NCBI GenBank assembly: GCA_009760855.2
Contig: WPIO01000069.1
Location: forward strand, 1,326,501-1,390,500
From: Cristatella mucedo
Taxonomy: Eukaryota > Bryozoa > Phylactolaemata > Cristatellidae
DNA length: 64,000 bases
Reading direction: 5' to 3'
The position numbers were made by a program, and so were the translations under genes. Positions 3,125 through 62,800 of this stretch are shown piece by piece. How positions within the stretch are numbered: the first letter of the stretch is position 1; each line of letters begins with the position of its first letter. Below the pieces are notes generated by a model. The model searched no databases. It had not been told where the DNA came from and saw only the letters and a list, made by a program, of their open reading frames with translations.

Positions 3125-3775
3125 ATGTATCTCCTTCAGTAACTCCACAAAGTTATAAAGACCATGTGGGTGTTACGCAGGAGAGTTTTGCATAGCGAAC
3201 TCACAGCCTAAGCGGCTTTCGGTACGCATTCAGTAGCCCAGAGACTTCGTCTCACGCAACAAAGAGATAATGGGAAGCATAGCAGAGTCAGGAGAGCAGT
3301 TGAGGTAGTGAGTAGCATAGCAGTAGCAGTTCAGGACCGCTGAAAAAGATGTGCCATAGTCGGCAGTTGGAGAGTAGTTTTCGCTGCGTAAGAATTGAGG
3401 AAGCGAGTTCCACAGTCTAGGACCCGCAGAGCTAAAGCTTCTGTCGCCAACTGTCTTTAAGCGGAGGAATGGGACACCTAATTTATTGTCCACACAGGAC
3501 CTGAGGGCGCGAACAGGCTGAAACTGATGCAGCAGTTCAGCTAGGCACGAAGGAGCCAAGCCGTGGCGGGCCTTGTGGGTCAGCGTAAGAACTTTGCTCT
3601 CTATCCTTTGCTCAACCGGCAACCATCGTAGCTCTTCCAGCAGAGTTGACACGTGCTCAAACCGCTGGGACTTGAAGACCAGCCTTGCAGCCATATTCAA
3701 AGTCAGCTGTAGTGGCATAATAGCTTTCTTTGGCAGCCCAGCCAAAAAGGAATTACAATAATTCTGACATTGAAC
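3125..3775 (-). mobile_element. LINE family A, 3' truncated copy
   Basis: A 171-codon minus-strand frame is one of the best-preserved family A C-termini. It contains KAIMPLQLTLNMAARLVFKS, EELRWLPVEQRI, HKARHGLAPS, RLWNSLPQF and NCSPDSAMLP. Its 3' UTR (toward lower coordinates) has the CCACATGG...CCACAAAG hairpin and the TACATTACATTA tail near 3120. This is the end of ORF2 downstream of the reverse transcriptase, so it has no catalytic motif of its own. Confidence 0.85.
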
Positions 3776-3779
3776 ATGC

Positions 3780-4779
3780 AGCCACTAACAGCATGGGATT
3801 TTAAACGTTTGAATGTCACATTTAATCACGTTGAGCTAGTTTACGTTGCAAACGACTAAGAAAGCCACATGACCCTGTTCCCTGTACATCCTAAGCAAGT
3901 TCTCCAAGTGGACAGTGCAAATGTCGTGATAAAAAGTATTGCTACCTACTGGGGGATTAAGCAGGTCTTTGTTCGTGTGATATAATTGCACGATAAAGTT
4001 GCGTTCGTGAATAAATACAGTGCAGTTGAGCTTACATTTTACTACACTAATCATATTTGCCTGAAAGTATCGCCTTTTCAAGAGTGATTGGTCGTATTCC
4101 GAAATATGACGGCTGTTATATTTCAAATTTCTTAAATTGAATGCGGATGGTTCTAACTCTTGCATATCATTCACTTAGCATACTTGATATGATTGTTAAA
4201 TTTCGCAATAGATTTGATATTTTTCGTATCCAGGAACAATTATTGAGCTTTCTAGATATTAGTAACATTAAACTTGGAATTTCACGAGTTTTGAGTTGAG
4301 AGTAGTTCCTCAGAATGCAAAAGCTTGAGCACTGCTAAGAGCTTACCAGGATCCAGATTCTTGTATGTTGTTTTGTTGTTATAGTTTTTATCTGTAATGA
4401 ACATAAAAGTCATTGAGAAAACCAAATCTCTCAGTACTGCTAACTTTATAACAGATACAATTTTTTCAATGTCGCTTAGATCACGTTGCAGGTTGGCACA
4501 TAACTGCAAGCAGGCCAATAGTTATGCGTAGGCAGAATTGAGAATAATTCATCAACAAGGTCGTAGCATATAATGGCAAAAACAATTTGTTACCCAGTCA
4601 TAACTATAATAAATATTTACTCAAAATCACTTATAAACGTTGCATTAGATATCGCTGAAACCATTTAAGGTAATTTAACTCGTGTATGTCTCTTATATGT
4701 ATGTTAGTATGCCACACCTCCAAGCCTCAACAATTGTTCAGGTGCCAAGCCTAAGTTTTGTAGTGCCCACTCTCTACCC
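3780..4779. other. unassigned; one weak exon-like frame
   Basis: On the minus strand, 4347-4503 is open between a good acceptor (CTGCTTGCAG) and a GTAAGC donor, phase 0 to 1. It begins LCANLQRDLSDIEKIVSVIK. No domain is recognised and it may be chance. Confidence 0.2.
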
Positions 4780-15064: not shown

Positions 15065-16540
15065 ACATAATCGGGGATTATATTCACCTGGTCAGCATGC
15101 AAGTATAGTGGTTTGCTGTGTGTGCAGTAGCAGCCCACATAAGAACATATGAGTAAAATCACAGGGAATCAATAAATGCAGTGATAAATAGGTGAATTTT
15201 TAGTTTCATTTTAAATTCGATCAAGTCAGGTGATTTCGTGGCTCAAGTAAAGAGTAATTTCCAGGTTTGTGGCGGAAAACCTGAAAGCACGTCTCAAAAG
15301 AATTTGAGATTTGAATGATGTATAAGTAAACAGCTCCATTCAGAAAAGCTGGTCATACTTTGCTTAGAATGGTTACGGAATAGATCTCGTACGTGGGATG
15401 GAGCCAAAGAATGAAGGAACCTAAAAGTGATTGACTAAACCTTGAAGTCAATGTGTTACCTTACTGGAAATCAGTACCGGTTGACAATAAGCCATGTTTG
15501 GTTGCAACTGCGAGGCTGATCACAGAAAAAAAAACCAAGCCCCAAAGTTTTGGACCAGCAGTAAGTTGACAATTTCACAAGCCGGTTGACCAACAAGCAG
15601 TGAGTTACATAAGTTGGTACGAGATTTCACAAATGCATGGACCAATTTAGTGCGGTATCCATATTTAACAGAGCATGAGTTTTTGCTATGTTATGTATCT
15701 AAAAGTAGGCTGACTTGAGTATGGAGTAGGTTCCATCGTCTAGTGATGGGTCGCAACAGAGCACTACATCCAAGCTGCTCAATGTTTCAACTGAAGATAT
15801 GCTGGTATAGCAAATTGTAAGGGACAGCATTTCCAATTTTCGAATCACTCTCGGTTTGGCCGTAACTATTAGGCCGGTTTTATCATCATTCAATTTAATA
15901 AAGTCAGTTGCTATCGAAGTGTGGATATCCTCAATACATACAGCAAGGGAGCTGAGATAATTGCTTGCTTGAGGGCTGGCAGAGATCAAAGCAAGGATAC
16001 AACTTAGTGTCATCTGAAAAGAAATAAAAGACCAGATCAGTGGTTCCTTACCTGTGGGTCGTGATGTCTGCGGGTTTGAACGACCCTTTCACAGGGGTCG
16101 AGTAAAATCATCCGACTAGACGCATTTCTAAACTCTGCAAGCAATACTGTTATGGTTTGGGGTCGTCAGAACATGAATAACTGTATTAAAAGATGGCGAT
16201 GTTAAGAAGGTTGAGAACCACTCACCTAGATTGGCCAGACAATCATATCGGCAATAGTGAGAACTTAAAAAGAGAAAATAACCAGACCCAGCAAAGATCC
16301 CTTACTCACCCAATATTTCAGAGATTTTTCGTATGGTTCTCGTCCATACACATCTAAAATCTGGAGTACCCCGCCGAGATAGGATCTGAGCAGCTCCAAT
16401 ACAATGCTGGTGATGCCCTGGCTAGATAAGAGGCTATCAAGTAGGATTGAGGGATCGATGGTATCACAAGCTGCCGAAAAAATGAGCAAAACATGCAATG
16501 AAACTTAACTTCAGGCTGCTCTGTTGAGTATGCCAGTTGA
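15065..16540 (-). mobile_element. LINE family B, long decayed copy interrupted by a MITE
   Basis: Reading down from 16540 on the minus strand: a reverse transcriptase core with FSAACDTIDPSILLDSLLSS (others: LSAAFDTIDHSILLDRLL), then VSKGSLLGLVIFSF (the GVPQGSVLGPLLFSLY block). The hAT MITE follows. Then FSDDTKLY stands for the catalytic YADDTQLY, followed by DFIKLNDDKTGLIVTAKPRV. A decayed TKLVHAFV...NSLL block and the 3' UTR come next. Stops and frameshifts occur throughout. This is the most complete family B reverse transcriptase in the window. Confidence 0.8.
16038..16223 (+). mobile_element. SPIN-like hAT MITE (non-autonomous)
   Basis: About 186 bp starts with CAGTGGTTCC...CCTGTGGGTCG and ends with AAGGTTGAGAACCACTC, which are terminal inverted repeats of hAT type. 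Inside are ACGACCCTTTCACAGGGGTC near the left end, and a GGTTTGGGGTCGTCAGAACATG block plus AACTGTATTAAA near the right end. This order, as I remember it, is that of the SPIN (SPACE INVADERS) non-autonomous hAT elements. The flanks GACCAGAT and ACCTAGAT look like a decayed 8-bp target duplication. It codes for no protein. A related hAT MITE family such as OC1 is the main alternative. Confidence 0.78.
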
Positions 16541-21929: not shown

Positions 21930-23016
21930 AGCATGTAAAACAGTTTTGGCATTCTGTTCTATTATTTCAAGATTAAAACCCTCAAAATTGGTCTGCCAGC
22001 ATATCCTTTGTTGAATCACCTCGAAATCAAAGTGTCAGGTTCCAAAGTGAAATCTCTTTCGAGACCACATCAGCTCCACAGTCAAGTCTGCCTACTTTCA
22101 GCTCAAATATAAATATAATTCATTTATATAGAGCCCCAATAGAACTTAATCTCTATTCAGGCGCTTCACATATGCCTCGGGCTTGAGCCCACAACCTCAG
22201 TCAGACCTTGGTCGGGGCGAGCACCTTAACCACTAGACAAACAAGCTACATAAGATTGCTAAAATTCGGGCTTGTTTAGATATGGGTACCACGTCTAAGT
22301 TGGTCCATGCATTTGTGACGTCCCGTCTTGACTTCTGTAACTCATTGCTTGCTGGAAAACCGACATGTGCAATCAGGCGATTGCAGCTGGTGCAAAACCC
22401 AGCAGTACGGTTCGTCTGCCGTGAGCTTTGCAGTTGCCACCTCACACCACTTCTTGGCGACCTGCACTGGCTACCAGTCAAGCAACGGATCGACTTCAAG
22501 GTTTCGTTGCTCACTTTTAGGTCACTTAATTCTTTCGCTCCAGCGTATCTCTCAGATCTACTCTCCACAAGGCTAGCATCGTACCACCGGCTTTTCGGAA
22601 TCGAACAGTTTACCAACACCTCTTACATACCTCAAATCCTCTGGAGACCATGCATTTACTTCGTATGCTCCCAAAGCCTGGAACTCCCTCCCGACCTGCG
22701 TCAGAACATCCCCTGACTTGACCAATTTTAAAAGGAACTCAAAACCACACCTGTTTATGACAGAATTTAGTGGGTCCCTGTGATTTTTCATTCACGTGCT
22801 TATGCATGCTGACACTGTGCATGCTGCCAATAACCATTTTTGCATGCTGACCCTCTGCATGTCACCCCTAACCATGATATCCATGTTGATTATCAAGCAT
22901 GCTATTACTCACCATTCAATTGAGTTTCCCCTTGCAGCAAATGCGAAATGCCAAGAAAGAGATTGAGTTCTCGGAGGGCACTGTATCAAGTGCATTAAAA
23001 ATAATATTATTATTAA
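21930..23016 (+). mobile_element. LINE family B, 3' truncated copy with SINE inside
   Basis: Coding remains begin with an IGSASIS-like segment, then STVKSAYFQL, are split by a SINE (22104-22247), and resume with a decayed NIAKIRACLD, then SRLDFCNSLLAGKPTCAIRR, HLTPLLGDLHWLPVKQRIDF and LTFRSLNSFAPAYLSDLL. The stop is followed by TTTAGTGGGTCC, two GCATGCTGAC units, the terminal hairpin and an ATTATTATT tail. The frame is broken after the SDLL block. Confidence 0.85.
22104..22247 (-). mobile_element. tRNA-derived SINE, family 2
   Basis: Read on the minus strand it begins TCTAGTGGTTAAGGTGCTCG (A box) and has GTGGGCTCAAGCCC (B box) 40 bases on. It ends in GAAGCGCCTGAATAGAGATT...TTCTATTGGGGCTC followed by an AT-rich tail. 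The tail copies the LINE family B 3' hairpin. It interrupts family B coding sequence between STVKSAYFQL and NIAKIRA, so it inserted later. AGCT words at both edges may be the remains of a target duplication. Confidence 0.8.
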
Positions 23017-41199: not shown

Positions 41200-44100
41200 G
41201 ACTTTTTAGAGAGTCTTTGTAATGTTGTAATAAAAATATCCTTCTCTGGCGGGTCAGTGAGAACCTTCCTGCATCCTGCTCTCGCCCTATCAACAGCTCG
41301 GCTATCAAGCCTACGACTCGTAAGTTTAAAGTGCTGAATAGTACTTGTTGCAGTAGTAGCCCACCCGGCAAAGCCCAGCACACTGTGAAACGTCGTCCGA
41401 CGGCCGTTACCAAGGTCCAATTCGAATTCGAAGAGCCAGCGTCCCTGGGGCCGGATGCAAACGGAGGAGAATACAAGCCACTTCGTCTCTGTCGCCAAAT
41501 GTTGGGCTGCCTCTTAAATTCCGCCTACTAAATGACCACTCCCTAAAAATCAAGGGGTTACTTATCTGCGATCAGATGGTCTATCAGAAGCTAGATGCAT
41601 TTCTGCTTACCGAAACCTGGATGATGCCTTGTTCCAGTAGCTGTATTACGAGACCACTCCACCTGGGTTCTCATTCTATAAGTCCCTGTGTTCTGACAAG
41701 GTTGGTTTCGGGTTGCAATTGTTGTTCGCAAATCGTTAGGATATAAAATGTGCAGTTTCTCGCATGGGTCATCGTTTAAATAGGTTGCTTCATCAAAGAC
41801 AATGCCTCTCACTGTTGTGATATACCGGCCACCGTCTGGCTGTCTAAACTTATTTGTTGAGGAGTTTTCAGAATTACTCGCTAAAATAGTTGCGTGTGGT
41901 AAGCCGTTATTGATTGTAGAAGACTTGAATATTCACGTTGACAACCCTAGCAACATCCAGGTCTGCTCATTTCTTGACTATCTGGAGAATTTAGGTGTTT
42001 ACTGTTCCTGCTCCCTCGTACATACAGGGAAATGTTGAATTTGCCAAACGACGTAACTTACAAAGCATTGACATAGACAAGTTTTTGAAATCTGTTTGTA
42101 ATTCAGGTCTTCTTGATCAGCATTCAGGCTCGACCGGCAGTCTCGATAACCTAACTGATGCGACGAACATGATACTCAGGAATGCTCTTGACAAGCACGC
42201 TCCCGTTCTCTTTATCCACAGCATTCAAAGTCGTAGAGAATCCTTTCAATTTACAAAAAAATCCTTAAGAGATGCCTGGTTAAGTGCAGGCTTGAACTTC
42301 GTTTCTAGAAATCGGGGTCTGAGGCAGATCTAATCAATTTTAAAGACTTCTTGTTAGTTCACACCCGAAATCTTAAAAAAGGGCTTCTTTGTTATTAGAA
42401 AGCTGAATTTCTGCTGTTTGACACTAAGCAGATTTATAAGACAGTAAAACTTTTAGTGGCCAGTGCTGTGAGGTCTGACTCCCCAGATATTAAGGGCTCA
42501 GCCGAAAAGTTTTCAGCCTTCTTTACCGAAAAATTGTGCACATTCGTGCCTCCATTAAGCCCCCTCCGACCAAAACAATCGCCCTTCCTCAACCTGTGAC
42601 CTTCCATAAAAAGTTCTCCGACGTTTCTGCAAGCGATGTGGCTGCCTTAATAAGGTCTAGCAAAAACAGCTCGTCTTCTGAAGACCCTATACCATCATCT
42701 CTGTGGTCTTCACTAGCAGACCAACTTAGCCCTCCCATAAAAAATATTTTTAATGCTTCTTTGGGAAAAAAGGTCGTCCCCAATTCCTTCAAATCGGCGA
42801 TCGTTAGACTTATTCATAAAAAGCCTGGATTAGGCTCACAGGTTTTAGCAAACTATTGCCCAGTTTCCCTTCTTTCGTTCTTATCAAAGATTCCTGAAAA
42901 ATTGTTGTTAAGCAGCTGGTTGAACATATTGAAAATAATGGATTGTCAGAAACATTTCAATCAGGGTTCAAGAGGCAGCAATCCACTAAAACTGCTCTCC
43001 TCCGTCTTAAAAATGACATTCTACGTGGCAACGACTATGGGAATGTCACTTCCCTAGCTCTGCTAGATCTGTCTGCTGCCTTCGACACCAGTGGTCATGA
43101 AGTTCTGCTTGAACAATTGAGAACTACGATCGGTAGGGCCGACGAAGCACTGGCGTGGTTTAAATTACACTTGTCCGATCGTGTTCAATCCGTGTCGTGT
43201 GGGGGTCAGGTCCCAGACACGAGAAGGGTCACCTGTGGAGTCCCTCAACGGCCTGTACTTGGTCTCTTCCTGTTCTCTATGTATACACAACCTCTGGGAA
43301 AAGTGATTAAGGCACAGGGAATAGGATATCACTTCTGACATCAATTCTGACAATACTCAGTTTAATTTGCAATTCAGACCGTCGGAATCTGCTGGGGCAA
43401 CTGAGAAACTGATTGCTTGCCTTCCCAATATTCGATCCTGCATGTCGGAAAACTTACGGAAATTTAATGATAATTAAACCCAACTGCTGCTCATAGGACA
43501 CCCTAAGCGTGTCGCTGGATTAAAAAGCTTTACTGTTCTAATAGGTGATGCTATTGCGCGACCATCACCATGTGGTCAAAATTTAGCTGTCGTGTTCGAC
43601 AGCTGCCTCAATGACAAAAGCTTAATTCAGATTATTGCCTCTACAGCTAGCCTTTACATCCGAACCCTATCCAAGAATATGAGCTGTCTCACGCAGTGGC
43701 TTCTAATAAATTAAACTAGCTCTTTAGTTTTGTCTCGGCTTGATTATTGTATTTCCCTTTTGGCTGAGCTGCCAGAGAAAGCTATTATGCCACTACAGTG
43801 GACAATGAATATGGCTGCAAGGCTGGTCTTCAAGTCCTAGCGGTCTGAGCACGTGTCTCCTTTGCTGAAAGAGCTAGGATGGTTGCCGGTTGAGCAAAGG
43901 ATACAGAGCAAAGTTCTTACGCTGACCCACAAGGCCCGCCACGGCTTGGCTCCTTCGTATCTAGCTGAACTGCTACATCAGTTTCAGCCTGTTCGCGCCC
44001 TCAGGCTGTATGTGGAGAATAAATTAGCTGTCCCATTCCTCTGCTTAAAGACAGTTGGCGACAGAAGCTTTAGCTTTGCAGTTCCTAGACTGTGGAACTC

Positions 44101-44395
44101 GCTTCCACAATTCTTAAGCAACGATGGCTACTCTCCTACTGCCGAGTATGGCACATCGTTTTCAGCGGTCCTGAGCTGCTACTTCTATGCTACTCACTAC
44201 CTCAACTGCTCTCCTGACTCTGCTATGCTTCCCACTTTCTCTTTGTTGCGTGAGACAAAGTCTGTTGGCTACCGAATGTGTAATGAAAGCCACTTAGGCT
44301 GTGATTGTGCTATCCAAAACTCTTCTGCATACACCCACATGGCCTTTAAGACTTTGTGGAGTGACAGACGGAAATACAAAAAAAAAGGACTCGGC
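41200..44395 (+). mobile_element. LINE family A, near full-length, inactive
   Basis: In order: 5' UTR-like text (GTTACCAAGGTCCAATTCGA), an APE endonuclease (LDAFLLTETW, then VVIYRPPSG and LIVEDLNIHVDNPSN), a linker, and the reverse transcriptase (KFSDVSASDVAALIRSS, FKSAIVRLIHKK, FQSGFKRQQSTKTALLRL, LLDLSAAFDTSGHEVLLEQL, GVPQRPVLGLFLFSMYTQPL). The C-terminal part follows from ELGWLPVEQRI to NCSPDSAMLP and CAIQNS. The YADD box is degraded to NSDN-like after a frameshift, and there are stops and several frame changes, so it cannot make active enzyme. The 3' hairpin remains, but the terminal tail is replaced by AAATACAAAAAAAAAGG. It belongs to the CR1/L2/Jockey-like clade. Confidence 0.85.
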
Positions 44396-44396
44396 A

Positions 44397-45035
44397 GTTA
44401 CAGTTGGCGGTAAACTTTGTAACTGGACTTGCATGTTCTCAGCTTTGCATTATCCACATCTCACTACGTCTTACTGACCTGCACCAGCTCCGAGTCAAGC
44501 GATTTATCAACTTAAAGGTTTTTCCACTCACTTTCAGGCCACTTCATTGTTTGGCTCCAGCCTACCTCTCTGATCTAATCCATCATCAGGATAAGCAAAA
44601 TAGCACTCGTATTTCGGAATCTAGTTGCTCACATATACCTCGTGCAGGCCTTAATTCCTGTGGAAATCGTGCTGCTAGTTCATACACCCCTAAAGCCTAA
44701 AACTCACTCCTGACTTCAGTGGCATCTTCTGTTTGACCTTTAAAAAAAATCAACAATAAACGAACCACTTTACTTCTAAATTTAGTGGGTCCATGCGATT
44801 CGGCCATTAATTTCGACCTATGCTTATTGGTGCTGGTACTATGCATGCTGCCACCAACCATACTTACATGCTGACCCTATCTATATCAAGCCTCCCCATG
44901 TTGATCTAGACGCTTTTTTAAGATTGATACCACTAACCATTCGATCGTGCTTTCTTTGCAGCTTATGTCAAGCTTCTAGAAAAGATTGAGTTCTCCAATG
45001 AAACCTTTTAATCGCATTTTATTGTTATTGTTATT
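44397..45035 (+). mobile_element. LINE family B, 3' truncated copy
   Basis: Plus-strand text has LHQLRVKRFINLKVFPLTFR, PLHCLAPAYLSDLI, SSCSHIP and YTPKA, then TTTAGTGGGTCCATGCGATT, a GCATGCTGCC unit, and a (TTATTG)n tail. It begins right where the family A copy ends. Confidence 0.75.
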
Positions 45036-49249: not shown

Positions 49250-50285
49250 TTCACTTGCATTTGTACTTGCTGCATTTATTGATGACATCCTCACAGGGAT
49301 GGCAGCAAATTTTCTAAAACTAAACGATGATACAACTAACTTACTAGTTATGGGCAAACCCAGTGTGATTCAGAAATTGAAAAGGCTGACGCTCAAAATT
49401 GGCTCTGCCAGCATATCACCTGTTGAATGTGCTTGATATCTAGGTGTCATGCTCCAAAGTGACCTCTAGTTAGATGATCACATCACTTCCACAGTCAAGT
49501 CTGCCTACCTTTAGCTACGTAACGTTGTTAAAATTCGGGCTTGTTTAGATAAGGATACCACATCTATGTTGGTCCATGCATTCGCAACATCCCGTCTCGA
49601 CTTCTGCAGCTCACTGCTTGCTGGCCTACGGGCATGTGCGATCTGGCGATTGCAGCTGGTGGAAAACATCTCAGCTAGGCTTGTCCGGCGTGAGCTTCGC
49701 TGCCGCCTGATCACACCACTTCTTGACGACCTGCACTGGCTACCAGTCAATCAACGGATTGACTTCAAGGTTTTGTCGCTCACTTTTAGGTCATTTCATT
49801 GTGTGGCTCCAGCCTCTCTCTCAGATCTAGTCCCCCATCCGGCCAAGCATCTTATCATCCACTCTTCCGAATCTAACAGTATACCAATATTTCTTACAAA
49901 CCTTAAATCCTTTGGAGACCGTGCATTCAGTTTGTATGCTCCCACAGCCTGGAACATACTCCCTACTGGAATGACAATATTCTCAGACTTGAGTACGTTT
50001 ACAAAAAAAATTAACAAGACCCTAGTTTAGGACTGCATTTAGTGGGTCCTGGTGATTCGTATTTCATGTGCTTATTAGTGCCGATACTCTGCATGCTGCA
50101 ACTGACCACACTCGTATGCTTACCCTGTGCATGTCAACCCTAAACATGTAACTCGTGCCCTTTAGCAAACATTTTTATACTCAGCGTTCCATCGCGTTTC
50201 ACTTTGCAGCAAATGTGAACACATCGAAAAAGATTAAGTTCAGTGGGGGCACTTTATCAAGTGCATAATTATTATTACGTCATCA
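49250..50285 (+). mobile_element. LINE family B, longest 3' plus-strand copy
   Basis: Starts after the YADD box with IDDILTGMAANFLKLNDD, LLVMGKPSVIQKLKRLTL and IGSASIS, and continues with HAFATSRLDFCSSLLAGLRA, LVEN, DDLHWLPVNQRIDFKVLSLT and FGDRAFSLYAPTAWNILPTG. The 3' UTR has the GCATGCTGC units and ends AAGTGCATAATTATTATTA. One frame is open for 154 codons (49566-50030), the least damaged family B segment here. Confidence 0.88.
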
Positions 50286-52448: not shown

Positions 52449-52780
52449 TTATGTCACTGGTATCAAGCTCACCTTGCTTCCCTTTGGAGGTCTCTGCGAT
52501 TGCCCACTGCTTACTGATCGCGTTTCTGCAAGGGATAGTTGATCTGCTGCAGTCTCCTCATTCGAAAGCACCAGAGATGCAGTGTCTGAATTCGATTCTG
52601 TTTGAGGATAGTCTGATAGCTTAAGTCGCGTGCTATTAAACTCGGACAGTTCCATTTTTTGAAGACTTCGCTTGGTGGTAAGGTACACACCAGCAATGGC
52701 AATTATAACCAGCACAACTAGAGCAATAAGTATTGCCGAATTAAAAACCAGGCCCAATGGTGTTTGGTTTCCAGTGGCTC
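52449..52780 (-). CDS. terminal exon: transmembrane helix and cytoplasmic tail of an Ig-type membrane protein
   Basis: The exon begins after a strong acceptor (CAAATTTATTTTTAG) in phase 1 and runs 110 codons to TAA. It encodes a short extracellular stalk with an N-glycosylation site (ATGNQTPLG), a hydrophobic helix starting LVFNSAILIALVVLVIIAIA, a basic stop-transfer segment (TTKRSLQK), and a Ser-rich, acidic tail (SNSDTASLVLSNEETAADQL). The end is KGSKVSLIPVT with no Tyr-based signalling motif. The phase matches the Ig-like exon at 60601-60873. The splice would create Gly and give YINWQG joined to ATGNQT. A type I plasma membrane receptor or adhesion protein is inferred; the family is not identified. 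Confidence 0.75.
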
Positions 52781-53154
52781 CTAAAAATAAATTTGAGTCT
52801 ACTGCATCAGTGAAAGAAGTGTTTTTAGAATAAATGGTAATATAATGCATGAATAATTATTTCTTCTCCCGAATAAAGTGCCAAAATCACAGTAGACAAA
52901 ATTTAATTTCCTTGAGAAGCCATAATGAATTACACAGTACTAGAATTTTAGTAGACTGCATGTAAATGTCATGCATCGCAGCCGTTTTTATCTTGGACTA
53001 CTTGCATATGCAGAGAGAACAGTCGCTTATGATGTTGATGTATATTAATGGAAATCTATTTGTGAGGAACGTTTTGGCCGAACATAAGTAACCAAAAGTA
53101 GCAAATTACTCATGACGTGTGATTACAATATCTACATGGGACCGTATGAATCTT

Positions 53155-57489: not shown

Positions 57490-58530
57490 TACAGATGCTT
57501 GCTCACTTGCTGCATGTATTGATGACATACCCACATGAATGGCAGCAAATTTTCTATAACTAAACGATGAAAAAACTAACTAACTAGATATGGGCAAACC
57601 CAGTGTGATTCAGAGATTGGAAATGCTGATTCTCAAAATTGGCTCTGCCAGCATATCTCAAATTGAATCAGCTCGAAATCTAGGAGTCATATTCCAAAGC
57701 GGGCTCTCGTTAGACAACCATATCAGCTCAACAGTGAAATCTGCCTATTTTTAGTCTCATAACATTGCTAAAATTTGGACTTGTTTAGAAAAGGATACTA
57801 CGTCCAAGTTGGTCCATGCATTCGTGACATCCCGTCTCGACTTCTGCAACTCACTGCTTACTGGCCTACTAGCATGTGCGATCAGGCGATTGCAGCTAGT
57901 GCAAAACTCTGCAGCTCTGGTTATCTGTCGTGAGCATCGCAGTTGCCACATTACTCCACTTCTCGCCGACCAGCACTGGCTACCAGTCAAGGAACGGATC
58001 GACTTCAAGGTCTTGTCGCTCACTTTTAGATCCCTTCATTATATGGCTCTAGCCTATCTTTCAGATATACTACCCCAACAGGCCAAGCATCGTACCACCA
58101 GCTTTTCGGAATCCAACAGTCTACAAAAACCTTGTAGAAACGTCAAATTCTTTGGACACCGTGAATTCAGTTCGTATGCTTCCTAAGCCAGGAAGTCCTT
58201 CCCGACCTGCTTCAGAACATCCCCTGATCTGACCACATTTAAAAGGAACTTAAAAACACACCTATTTAGGACAGCATTTGGTGGGTCCCTGTAATTCGTC
58301 CTTCATGTGCTTGTGCATGCTGACACTGTGCATGCAGCCACTAACCACATTTGCATGCTGACCCTGTGCATGTCACCCCTAACCATAATATTCATGGTTT
58401 TTGGTTTTCAAGCATGATTTTACTTACCATTCAATTGCATGTTCCTTTGCAGCAAATGCAAAGTGCCTAGAAAGAGATTCTGTTCTCTGAGGGCGCTTTA
58501 TCGAGTACATTATTATTATTATTATCAATA
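57490..58530 (+). mobile_element. LINE family B, 3' copy
   Basis: Begins with CIDDIPT-like text, LNDEKTN, MGKPSVIQRLEMLILKIGSA and IEFQ-like variants. The 57809-58186 frame reads MVHAFVTSRLDFCNSLLTGL, CAIRRLQLVQNSA, HITPLLADQHWLPVKERIDF and YMALAYLSDILPQQAKHRTT. Next come FKRNLKTHLFRTAF, the TTTGGTGGGTCC junction, two clear GCATGCTGAC units, the hairpin and ATTATTATTATTAT. A good example of the complete family 3' UTR. Confidence 0.88.
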
Positions 58531-58800: not shown

Positions 58801-60600
58801 AATGAGAGAGAAATGATATTATATGTGTTATAATGATCACAGCATAGCCATGTTGTAAACTCAAAATGAAATAGTAAGACACATTTATATAAATATTGTT
58901 ATAAATAAATAAATAAATATATATACATTATTCTTTTGTTTTGCACCATAAGGGAAGGTAATCTTTGTCCAGGTGCTCCACTTGCCTCGCTCTCATACTC
59001 CCAACTTTGACAAGAACTTGGTCCCGAGCACCTCAATTATTGGGATACAATGTAAGCAGCTGATTGTTAAAAAGTATTCCGGCAAATTAGCCATCTCTCT
59101 TGGTTTTTAGTAGCTGAAAAAACACTGCTTTCCATGATGCATAAGCTAGCTCGCACTGTGCACATTATCACTAGCTGTAATAATAAATACTCATTCCTGA
59201 ATCGATGGAGTTTGGCCATCCCAATACAGTGTTCTCAGATAGTTCAAATGAAAATGCACCAATACGATTTTTTTAACTATAATGCTATTGATCCCAGGGT
59301 TTAATTACATATTTTTTTAAAGATCGGTGGCATGTGGAAAACATTTAAGGCACTATGATGCAATATTAGGTGCCAAATTGTCAAAATATATGTCTTTATT
59401 TAAATTTGACCGTAATGTAAACAATAAGTAATCATTCGCCGAAATATTGCCACTGCTAATTCTTTTATCTGGTCACAAAACCCTCGAAATATCATAATAA
59501 GCTCTATTTTAACGTGGTCTCTCGATTTCATGGCACATACCATCTATTATTTTGCTTTGATAGTGAACACCATACATATTAATAGGTCTTCTCTTAGTGA
59601 GCTACCAAGTGCATTATTATTATTAATATAAGTGTAAGACCAACTTGCTCTATACTACTTCGACTATTGACAGACGGTTTTGAAAATCCAGGCGACTAAT
59701 TTCGAACTCAAGTCCACCTGTTCAAGGTGGCCCTGATTATAAGGGCTATCCATTAAACGAGCTTCGTCGCGAGCAGACTTGTGTTGCGCAATTCGAAATT
59801 ATGCATGGTGTTGAAAACTTTAGATTTGCTGGTAAATTATATTAAAATTGTTTTAAATTCTTCACCACAACTAGATAAGCACAGCAATTTTATAGATCCC
59901 TAAAATATAGTTACCGGATCCTTACTTTTCGGGCAACTTTCACGCTGTCTTCATACTGACCCTCATACATCCATGCAACTACGTACTGAAATTAGTCACA
60001 TATTTGCTTTTAATTGGTCTATCGATTATATCACTGCAGTTATTTCTTTAGAAAAGCTAATGAGAGTGATCGAATAAATATGATGCTTTACTGCACAAAA
60101 AAGTTGCTTTCTAAGTTTTCAGGTCGCGTGTGCTACTAGGGTAGTCATTTTTTTAAACGAACAAGGTTGTAAGTGGATTCATCATTTTAAATAAGCCTAA
60201 ATTAAATGGAAAAAATACGTAAGTTGCCTAATTATTTAGATCTTTTCTTTGCACTTAAGTTAATTTAGAGCACACAAAATTGTATGCTTTTTCAACTCTG
60301 AAGAGCAAATAAATACAAACAAACTATTTGCACGGCAAAATTTAAAGAACTATTGTTCCAATTCCGGCTTTGCTATTCGTATTTGATAAATGAACTTTCT
60401 TGCGGTCGGCAGCCTAAGGTCTTCAAAGTTCACTGCTAATAAATAAAAAGTTTTCACCTGACATTAAAAAAAAGTTGGCCTTTTCGAATGTCTCTTAACA
60501 AAATGCGCTACAAAAAACACTCGAAATAGAAATAAAGCCTCTAAGAAATGTCAGCTAAAGATTAACTGTCGTCTTTAAAATAAAGCCACGTATTATTTAC

Positions 60601-60873
60601 CTTGCCAATTTATGTACAGAGTACCGGTCACTGTGGCGCTTCTTCCAAAATACTCGTAATGACAGCGGCAGTAGATGCCAGCAGCCATGTTTTCGGGAAC
60701 AACGAGATACTCCATTTTTACTCGTGTTCTAAAGGAGACACCTCCGGCAGCACTAAGGGTATACAACTCGCACTCCGTTGGTCGTAACGGTGGGTTGCTA
60801 TCAAATATATTGCAAGAAGCATTGAATGACTCCTCGGTAGTCAAATATTCGTCTCCAACATCACTTGGGAGAT
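60601..60873 (-). CDS. Ig-like domain exon of a membrane protein
   Basis: The exon spans 91 codons from CAGCTGCTTTTAG to a good donor (AAG/GTAAAT), phase 1 on both sides, the classic size and phase of a single Ig domain. Residues include LPSDVGDEYLTTEESFNASC (first Cys), then PPLRPTECELYTLSAAGG, FRTRVKMEYLVVPENMAAG, and IYCRCHYEY matching the (D)xGxYxC strand F motif (AAGIYC). It ends with VTGTLYINWQG, a G strand. An upstream AG would add about 10 residues (YFRTEFQLLL). Spliced to 52780-52449 it places the domain next to a stalk and transmembrane helix. Further N-terminal domains and the signal peptide presumably lie to the right. A fast-evolving recognition or adhesion receptor is plausible but not shown. 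Confidence 0.7.
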
Positions 60874-60909
60874 CTAAAAGCAGCTGAAATTCAGTTCGAA
60901 AGTACTGCG

Positions 60910-61800
60910 AAGTATATAATTACCTGCAAAACACTTTCAGCCTTAGTAAAGCATTAGTGGCAAGACGTCTCCGCCCGTCATTACACCAGAGTTTCAGATA
61001 CATTTGCATAAGAACATGAAGCTGAGACGGTAATAATGGTTAACGGTTTCCTGAAATATTGGTATGCGTTTAAATAAGGACCACCACAAGCTTTATTTAG
61101 GATACGACTACGAATACCCTACGGATCATGACTTTGTTCTTGATTCCATTAACCACTACGTAGCTTTAGCTCTGACATTATGTTAGCCACAATTTCAATA
61201 GATGGCACACGTTGCACATATACTGCGGCATAATTATTGTGGATTTTAACGACTGATCTATATCTAAACCGCTCGCACTCTATGTAAAGAAAACTAAAAC
61301 TAGTTTTTTTTAGCTGTGTCCACTCTAAAATAATGCTTCTCTGGGAAATTGAGTTTCGTTGTGCTCTAATAAACTTAAAGGGATTTTAGCGTATCTATTC
61401 TTAGCTGGGAAAGGAAAGATCAGTAAATTTTGCTAATAGGCTTGCTTCAATATTATTTTGAATGAAATTCAAATCCAAATCATTGCTTACAGGCACAGTG
61501 GTACTATTACCGCTAAGATTGCATGACGTTTTTTGCAACTTCAATGTATCATTAAAATGGTTGTTTCTACTCGTCGTGGAATACTTAATCTGAATTACTA
61601 TTACAGCTACTGCGATTCAGTGCGAGTATACAATTGCTACTGAGATCGTTTCTTACTCGTTCACCAACTCTTAGTATAACACTGTGGGTTTGGCCCTGAG
61701 GACAAAAGGGTCAGCCATGGATCGTGCTTCCTGCATTTCTGCAATGCAAGGAGCTTTTTGCATTTCTGCAAGAGCTTTTTCGCTAACTAGAAAGCTTTAA
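60910..61800. other. unassigned, probably intron
   Basis: No further exon with supported splice sites could be found on the minus strand, and no repeat is recognised. Confidence 0.35.
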
Positions 61801-61804
61801 GGTG

Positions 61805-62800
61805 TGTCAAAATCTCCGTTTGTCTCTGTATCTCTGTCTGTAACTCCACGCAACTATAATGACTATGTGGGTACCACGAGGGAGAGTTTCGCATAGCGTA
61901 CTCGCAGCCTAAGTAGCTTTCGGTACACGTTCGGTGGCCGATAAACTTCGTCTTACCAAATAAAGAGAACATGGGAAGCGTAGCCGAGTCAGGAGAGCAG
62001 TTAAGGTTATGAGTAGCATGGAAGTAGCAGCCCAGGACCATTAAAAAGGATGAGCAATAGTCGGCAGCAAAGAGTATTTGTCGTCGTGTGAGACTTGTGG
62101 AAGCAAGTTCTACATTCTAGGAATTGCAGAGCTAAAGCTTCTGTCATCAACGGTCTTTAAGCGGAGGAATTGAGCTGCTTATTTATTGTCCGCAGACGAC
62201 CTGAGGGCACAAAGATTCAGAAATCGGTGCAGCAGTTCAGCTAGGTACGAAAGAGCCAAGCCGTGGCGGGCCTTGTGGGTCAGCGTAAGAGCTTTGCTCT
62301 GTATCCGTTGCTCAACCGGCATCCATCCTAGCTCTTTTAGCAAAGGAAACACGTGCTCAAACCTCTGGGATTTGAAGACTAGCATCGCAGCCATACTCAG
62401 AGTCAGCTGCAGTGGCCTAGTTGCTTTGTTTGGTAGCCCAGCCGAAACGGAATTACAATAATCAAGCCGAGACAGAACTAAGAAGCTAGTTAAATTCTTT
62501 ACAAGGCACTGTGGATGGCCGCTCCTAATCTTGGAAAGGTATCGGACCTTATGGCTAGATGCAAAAGCAGTCTAGTGAATGAAGCGTTACAAATTGAGGC
62601 AGCTGTCGAAACCGACACTTAAATTTCGAGCACGTGGTGATGGTCGCACAACAACAACCCCTATTAGAAGAGTAAAGCCTTTTAATCCAGTCACATGCAT
62701 TGGGTGTCGTAAAGGCAGCAGTTCCGTTTTATCATCATTTATTTTTTTAAGAAGTTTTCCGATATCCATGATCGAATGCCAGCAAGGCAAGCATTCATTT
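61805..62800 (-). mobile_element. LINE family A, 3' half including post-RT region
   Basis: From 62790 downward: KKINDDKTELLPLRHPMHVT, GFTLLIG and RPSPRARNLSVGFDSCLNL lie downstream of the YADD box. A nearly continuous AAMLVFKSQRFEHVFPLLKE, LGWMPVEQRIQSKALTLTHK and ARHGLALSYLAELLHR block follows, then VLGCYFHATHNLNCSPDSAT and the 3' UTR. The INDDKTELL word matches FNDNxTQLLLIG in the near-complete copy. Broken into several frames. Confidence 0.85.

Follow-up and report, generated by a model that had tools for sequence, protein, structure and literature searches.

Positions 16038-16223 of the window, i.e., of the whole 64,000-nucleotide stretch of DNA that was analyzed, are best explained as an old copy, probably no longer mobile, of an abundant Buster-group hAT MITE family that is close to SPIN and OposCharlie1 (OC1), a reading to which we assign a probability of about 0.92. 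The segment is a single, non-coding 186-bp copy of a MITE of ~187 bp, and its terminal repeats are imperfect (CAG[C/T]GGTTCTCAACC). The MITE is of a known kind, and its annotation is well supported but ordinary. The hAT ends, the internal word, the word near the right end and the decayed 8-bp duplication that had been described in the initial annotation are all present in the window at the positions given there:

16038..16223, plus strand: copy of a hAT MITE (Buster group, SPIN/OC1-type), 186 bp, non-coding, assigned from its ends, its relatives and the consensus alignment.
16031..16037, plus strand: left copy of the target site duplication, ACCAGAT, from which one base has probably been lost.
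16038..16052, plus strand: left terminal inverted repeat, decayed, CAGTGGTTCCTTACC; the family consensus reads CAGCGGTTCTCAACC.
16038-16047: left-end word CAGTGGTTCC, read in the letters of the window.
16080-16099, plus strand: subterminal ACGACCCTTTCACAGGGGTC, found also in the family consensus.
16179-16190: word near the right end, AACTGTATTAAA, read in the letters of the window.
16209..16223, minus strand: right terminal inverted repeat, GGTTGAGAACCACTC; the consensus end is CACTG, and the outermost base is altered here.
16224..16231, plus strand: right copy of the target site duplication, ACCTAGAT, of the form nnnTAnnn.

Compared without gaps, ACCAGAT and ACCTAGAT are equal at 5 of 8 bases, and the agreement is full if one base was lost from the left copy. 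Per 4-kb stretch, the window has a G+C content of 36-43%. It yielded no match in Rfam and tRNA scans, and a Pfam search with four window ORFs returned nothing at 0.001.

The initial annotation had pointed to the rest of the genome as the place to look for further copies, and these are abundant. In a 572-Mb assembly of 688 contigs, the 186-bp query yielded 40 scored matches from 1,428 candidates, i.e., the window copy and 39 relatives, with E values from 7.6e-91 (the query itself) to 2.5e-27 and a closest non-self match that is 80% identical. The right-end 22-mer, allowing up to three mismatches, is found at 1,224 places across the whole genome (618+606) vs 1+0 for the reversed word. The consensus is 187 bp in length and is the same whether derived from 28 or from 62 copies; the window copy is identical to it at 146 of 185 aligned bases (79%), with an alignment score of 163 vs a best score of -93 among 200 base shuffles of the window copy. 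The number of genome matches, the count of right-end places relative to the control and this alignment score together put the resemblance far beyond chance. It is therefore extremely improbable that the segment resembles a hAT element by chance or has no more than a generic hAT end, as the 79% identity of the window copy, taken by itself, could suggest; such an explanation is refuted by the copy number, the consensus and the duplications.

The two consensus ends are inverted repeats of each other over 16 bp, a single mismatch included, a length within the 10-25 bp given for the short terminal inverted repeats of the hAT superfamily (excerpted text of PMC3942097). The family also has the properties that define a MITE, i.e., it is short (187 bp), non-coding and flanked by terminal repeats, and has a high copy number (1,224 right-end places). 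Folded as single-stranded DNA, the consensus forms a strong structure (z -4.67, 0/200 shuffles), as expected from the inverted ends and subterminal palindromes. Exact consensus words gave 0 matches in viral contigs and 0 in bacterial and archaeal contigs, the latter being genomes that say little on an animal MITE.

The target sites were read from a sample of 62 copies, composed of the window copy, the 27 best matches to it and 34 copies found by a near-exact right-end word; the longer form L058, which is part of L059, was excluded, and L063 is a duplicate of the window copy. In 39 of the 62 copies the flanking 8-mers differ at no more than one base, and in 18 they are identical, while the remaining 23, the window copy included, are mostly without a clean ungapped duplication. 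An 8-bp target site duplication is a hAT feature (according to part of PMC3942097) and is displayed by these copies. All 18 exact duplications carry TA at positions 4-5 (nnnTAnnn), with T (10) and C (12) favored before TA and G (11) and A (10) after it. This pattern is the target preference of TcBuster, and SPIN has been placed in the Buster family (as stated in the excerpt of PMC3499496); the exact duplications thus agree in 18 of 18 cases with the preference of the Buster group.

The same sample offers a measure of age. For the 61 copies other than the window copy, the K2P distance to the consensus is 0.034-0.176, with means of 0.062 for the 27 best matches to the window copy and 0.090 for the 34 copies picked by the right-end word. 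Both sampling routes favor young copies, and old copies are therefore under-represented in these values. No other member of the sample is as diverged as the window copy (K2P 0.258; 21 transitions, 19 transversions), which is consequently a poor witness of the family; its best genome match is about as near to it (80%) as is the consensus (79%). This copy may stand alone in its divergence or belong to an older layer of which the sample has too few copies. It is old and presumably inert.

The order of events at the insertion site is indicated by the flanking DNA, in which two further features were recognized by eye:

15702..16037, minus strand: relic of a non-LTR retrotransposon reverse transcriptase (RT), part downstream of the insertion (SDDTKLY...LNDDKT).
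16232..16480, far end approximate, minus strand: the same RT relic, part upstream of the insertion (DTIDPSILLD...LRSYL...EKSLKY).

When the flanks are joined with one duplication removed, the two RT halves meet, although no single open frame spans them. Read in minus-strand orientation, the right flank precedes the left, which we take to be the motif order of a non-LTR reverse transcriptase. Since the halves are split by the MITE and stand in order, the retroelement was in place first and the MITE came second. Other decayed non-LTR RT fragments were noted by eye in the window at 3233-3784, 22237-22713, 42494-44410, 49515-50027, 57755-58183 and 62182-62571; three of these six were given to Pfam, which found nothing in them at 0.001. 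Also by eye, two minus-strand open frames, at 60596-60919 and 52452-52856, resemble host-gene exons, one being an immunoglobulin-like stretch and the other having a transmembrane segment and a polar tail.

Longer forms of the element are present in the genome. A 331-bp stretch containing a longer relative, used as a DNA query, retrieved 41 rows (its own among them) out of 2,116 candidates. In six longer copies (L059, L119, L123-L126) the two ends are 283-482 bp apart and enclose additional interior sequence, which at this length leaves no room for a transposase. An interior word of L119, lying 75-115 bp inward of the right end, was matched at 18 places with up to three mismatches vs 0 in the control, and L119 itself is flanked by an exact TTTTAGTG duplication. 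The 187-bp form and the longer copies have the first ~93 bp and the last ~81 bp in common, from which we infer that the short and the longer forms are several internal-deletion derivatives of one parent. Two places (G000:C653:7589747-7589980 and G000:C468:10001-10234) match the long MITE over query positions 50-284 only, both at 84%, and are without both MITE ends; they possibly belong to another repeat that bears the interior. Beside one of the longer relatives, at L124:3-962 (plus strand), an open frame of 320 aa that belongs to the DIE2/ALG10 glucosyltransferase family (262.7 bits, profile positions 109-391) lies ~1.2 kb upstream of the MITE.

An autonomous transposase was the other element that the initial annotation had proposed to look for in this genome, and here the outcome was negative for the loci inspected: a transposase with the MITE ends was absent from the six long copies, from 20 weaker Dimer_Tnp_hAT loci and from three DUF4371 loci. 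The strongest hAT transposase family, which makes up 63 of the 138 Dimer_Tnp_hAT rows at scores of at least 69 bits, was rejected as a partner, its ends being TAGGGCTGTACCGGA and 33 of its loci (L009-L038, L060-L062) not matching the MITE consensus. This family is ~3.2 kb in length and very young, the best stretches of 29 loci being 98.8-99.8% identical to L015, and at L061:1674-4861 it contains a 640-aa frame with BED and dimerization (Dimer_Tnp_hAT) domains; six of the 14 left flanks printed are AT repeats. None of the 20 weaker Dimer_Tnp_hAT loci (L079-L098) matches the consensus or the longer form, and three of them (L082, L086 and L087) are broken fragments of the strong family. Loci L120-L122, from three of the 46 DUF4371 rows, were likewise dismissed, since their ends, CAGGGGTGTCCAAC, are unlike those of the MITE. 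They define a second hAT family of Buster type, ~2.7 kb in length; all three loci have nnnTAnnn duplications, the frames reach 563 aa, and L121 and L122 are 93.8 and 94.8% identical to L120. In L121 a zf-C2H2_12 match is accompanied by a DUF4371 match below its cut-off, and its DUF4371-type transposase gave no PDB relative at E 0.1.

These observations are consistent with a simple history of the family. The MITEs would have arisen as internal-deletion derivatives of an autonomous element, retained both of its ends and multiplied by cut-and-paste transposition, the transposase acting in trans. The flanks of the copies show that insertion was into nnnTAnnn sites and duplicated 8 bp. As its own flanks show, the window copy landed in the non-LTR RT relic recognized there by eye; it then decayed, and with the outermost right base and part of the left repeat altered it would probably no longer be recognized.

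The relation to SPIN and OC1 was approached with two provisional strings, i.e., the left 122 bp of SPIN and a 225-bp OC1-type MITE, rather than with Repbase/Dfam records. Over its first 93 bp the consensus is 97.8% identical to the provisional SPIN left end. The right part of the provisional OC1 fits the longer copies, at 90.8% over 152 bp (L119), 93.3% over 135 bp (L123), 89.2% over 148 bp (L059) and 91.0% over 133 bp (L124). The provisional left ends fit the longer copies at 76-86% for SPIN (four copies) and 71-80% for OC1; the provisional OC1 as a whole is 76% identical to the consensus over 225 columns with 4 gaps, and the window copy is 75-81% identical to the provisional SPIN/OC1 strings over pieces of 77-92 bp. 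As sequence matches to provisional strings, these figures may serve as leads as to membership. The designation of the element as a SPIN-like hAT MITE, proposed in the initial annotation, holds insofar as the ends, the nnnTAnnn sites, the copy number and the similarity to the provisional strings indicate a Buster-group hAT MITE with SPIN/OC1-type ends, but judged by these strings the element is neither plain SPIN nor plain OC1, because its first 93 bp fit the provisional SPIN and its right part the provisional OC1. Words of the MITE ends occur in none of the transposon papers searched, and their occurrences were confined to three papers with unrelated titles.

SPIN/OC1-kind elements are known to jump between distant animals. 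OC1 was reported from twelve animal lineages, including a triatomine bug and a planarian with 1,286 and 46 copies, respectively (Table 1), and across hosts its copies are on average 2.2-10.5% from the consensus (excerpts of PMC3621081); Rhodnius also carries SPIN (part of PMC11614815). There is about an even chance that the family entered this genome horizontally, as part of the wave that brought SPIN/OC1 to tetrapods, Rhodnius and planaria, and then underwent a burst. The best stretches against the provisional SPIN/OC1 strings (89-98% over 93-152 bp) point in this direction, as does the fact that the similarity to these strings extends to ~150 bp from the right end, which is high for non-coding DNA. 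Furthermore, the sampled K2P values of 0.034-0.176 overlap the averages of the OC1 hosts (PMC3621081, as excerpted), suggesting a comparable age, and the hAT element of Biomphalaria glabrata, present in ~1,000 copies, is also SPIN-like (excerpt of PMC5440852). However, the SPIN/OC1 identity was measured on provisional strings, the window copy is much farther from the consensus than most of the sample, and termini make up nearly the whole of a 187-bp MITE. Buster elements have about 106 bp of termini in common (part of PMC4298943), and a likeness at the ends can therefore come from constraint.

Such constraint is central to a second explanation, plausible at somewhat under even odds, in which the family is a vertically inherited Buster lineage with ends that stay SPIN/OC1-like through binding of the transposase. 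It draws on the published conservation of the Buster termini (PMC4298943, as far as excerpted) and on the second nnnTAnnn family with long open frames (L120-L122), from which it follows that the genome hosts such elements generally. It is countered by L119 and L059, in which the similarity to the provisional OC1 string continues to about 150 bp from the right end, i.e., past the ~106 bp that Buster elements share.

A more specific possibility, less likely than not, is that a composite Buster element, SPIN-like at its left end and OC1-like at its right, invaded an invertebrate that is not among the published hosts. If real, this invasion would add one more independent arrival to the SPIN/OC1 transfer wave, and the element would be a recombinant or an intermediate lineage between SPIN and OC1. 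With transfer confirmed, the combination of the two ends would bear on how SPIN and OC1 relate, and a new host lineage together with a coding region that confirms transfer would extend the known case of DNA moving between animal phyla.

The preferred assignment, a Buster-group hAT MITE close to SPIN and OC1, can be compared with the known members of this group. Like the SPIN non-autonomous elements, the MITE is a short, non-coding Buster-family hAT, and its left 93 bp are 97.8% identical to the provisional SPIN string; unlike SPIN, it has a right part that fits the provisional OC1 string. The likeness to OC1 includes its length and probable internal-deletion origin (187 bp vs 192 bp for OC1_Das_NA), a copy number of the same order as that of OC1 in Rhodnius (1,286 copies; both from excerpts of PMC3621081) and the right ~133-152 bp of the longer copies, which are 89-93% identical to the provisional OC1 string. 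The left end fits that string less well (71-80% in the longer copies), and the breakpoints differ: the deletion behind OC1_Das_NA has its breakpoints at positions 36 and 2337 of the 2,571-bp parent, and the OC1_Das transposase is 602 aa in length (PMC3621081, as excerpted), whereas the 187-bp form keeps ~93 + 81 bp. With Buster1 and Buster2 of invertebrates and bats the family has in common the Buster group, the presence of MITEs and invertebrate hosts, and the subterminal word reported for Buster1 (part of PMC4298943), TGGGTCGCG, occurs once in the MITE consensus; the terminal repeat of the MITE, CAGCGGTTCTCAACC, is unlike the repeats given in PMC4298943 for Buster1 (CAGGGCTTCTTAAAC) and for bat Buster2 (CAGGGGTGGCCAACCT). 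In host type and copy number the family also resembles the SPIN-like hAT of Biomphalaria glabrata, which is likewise found in an invertebrate and has ~1,000 copies with significant identity to SPIN (excerpt of PMC5440852).
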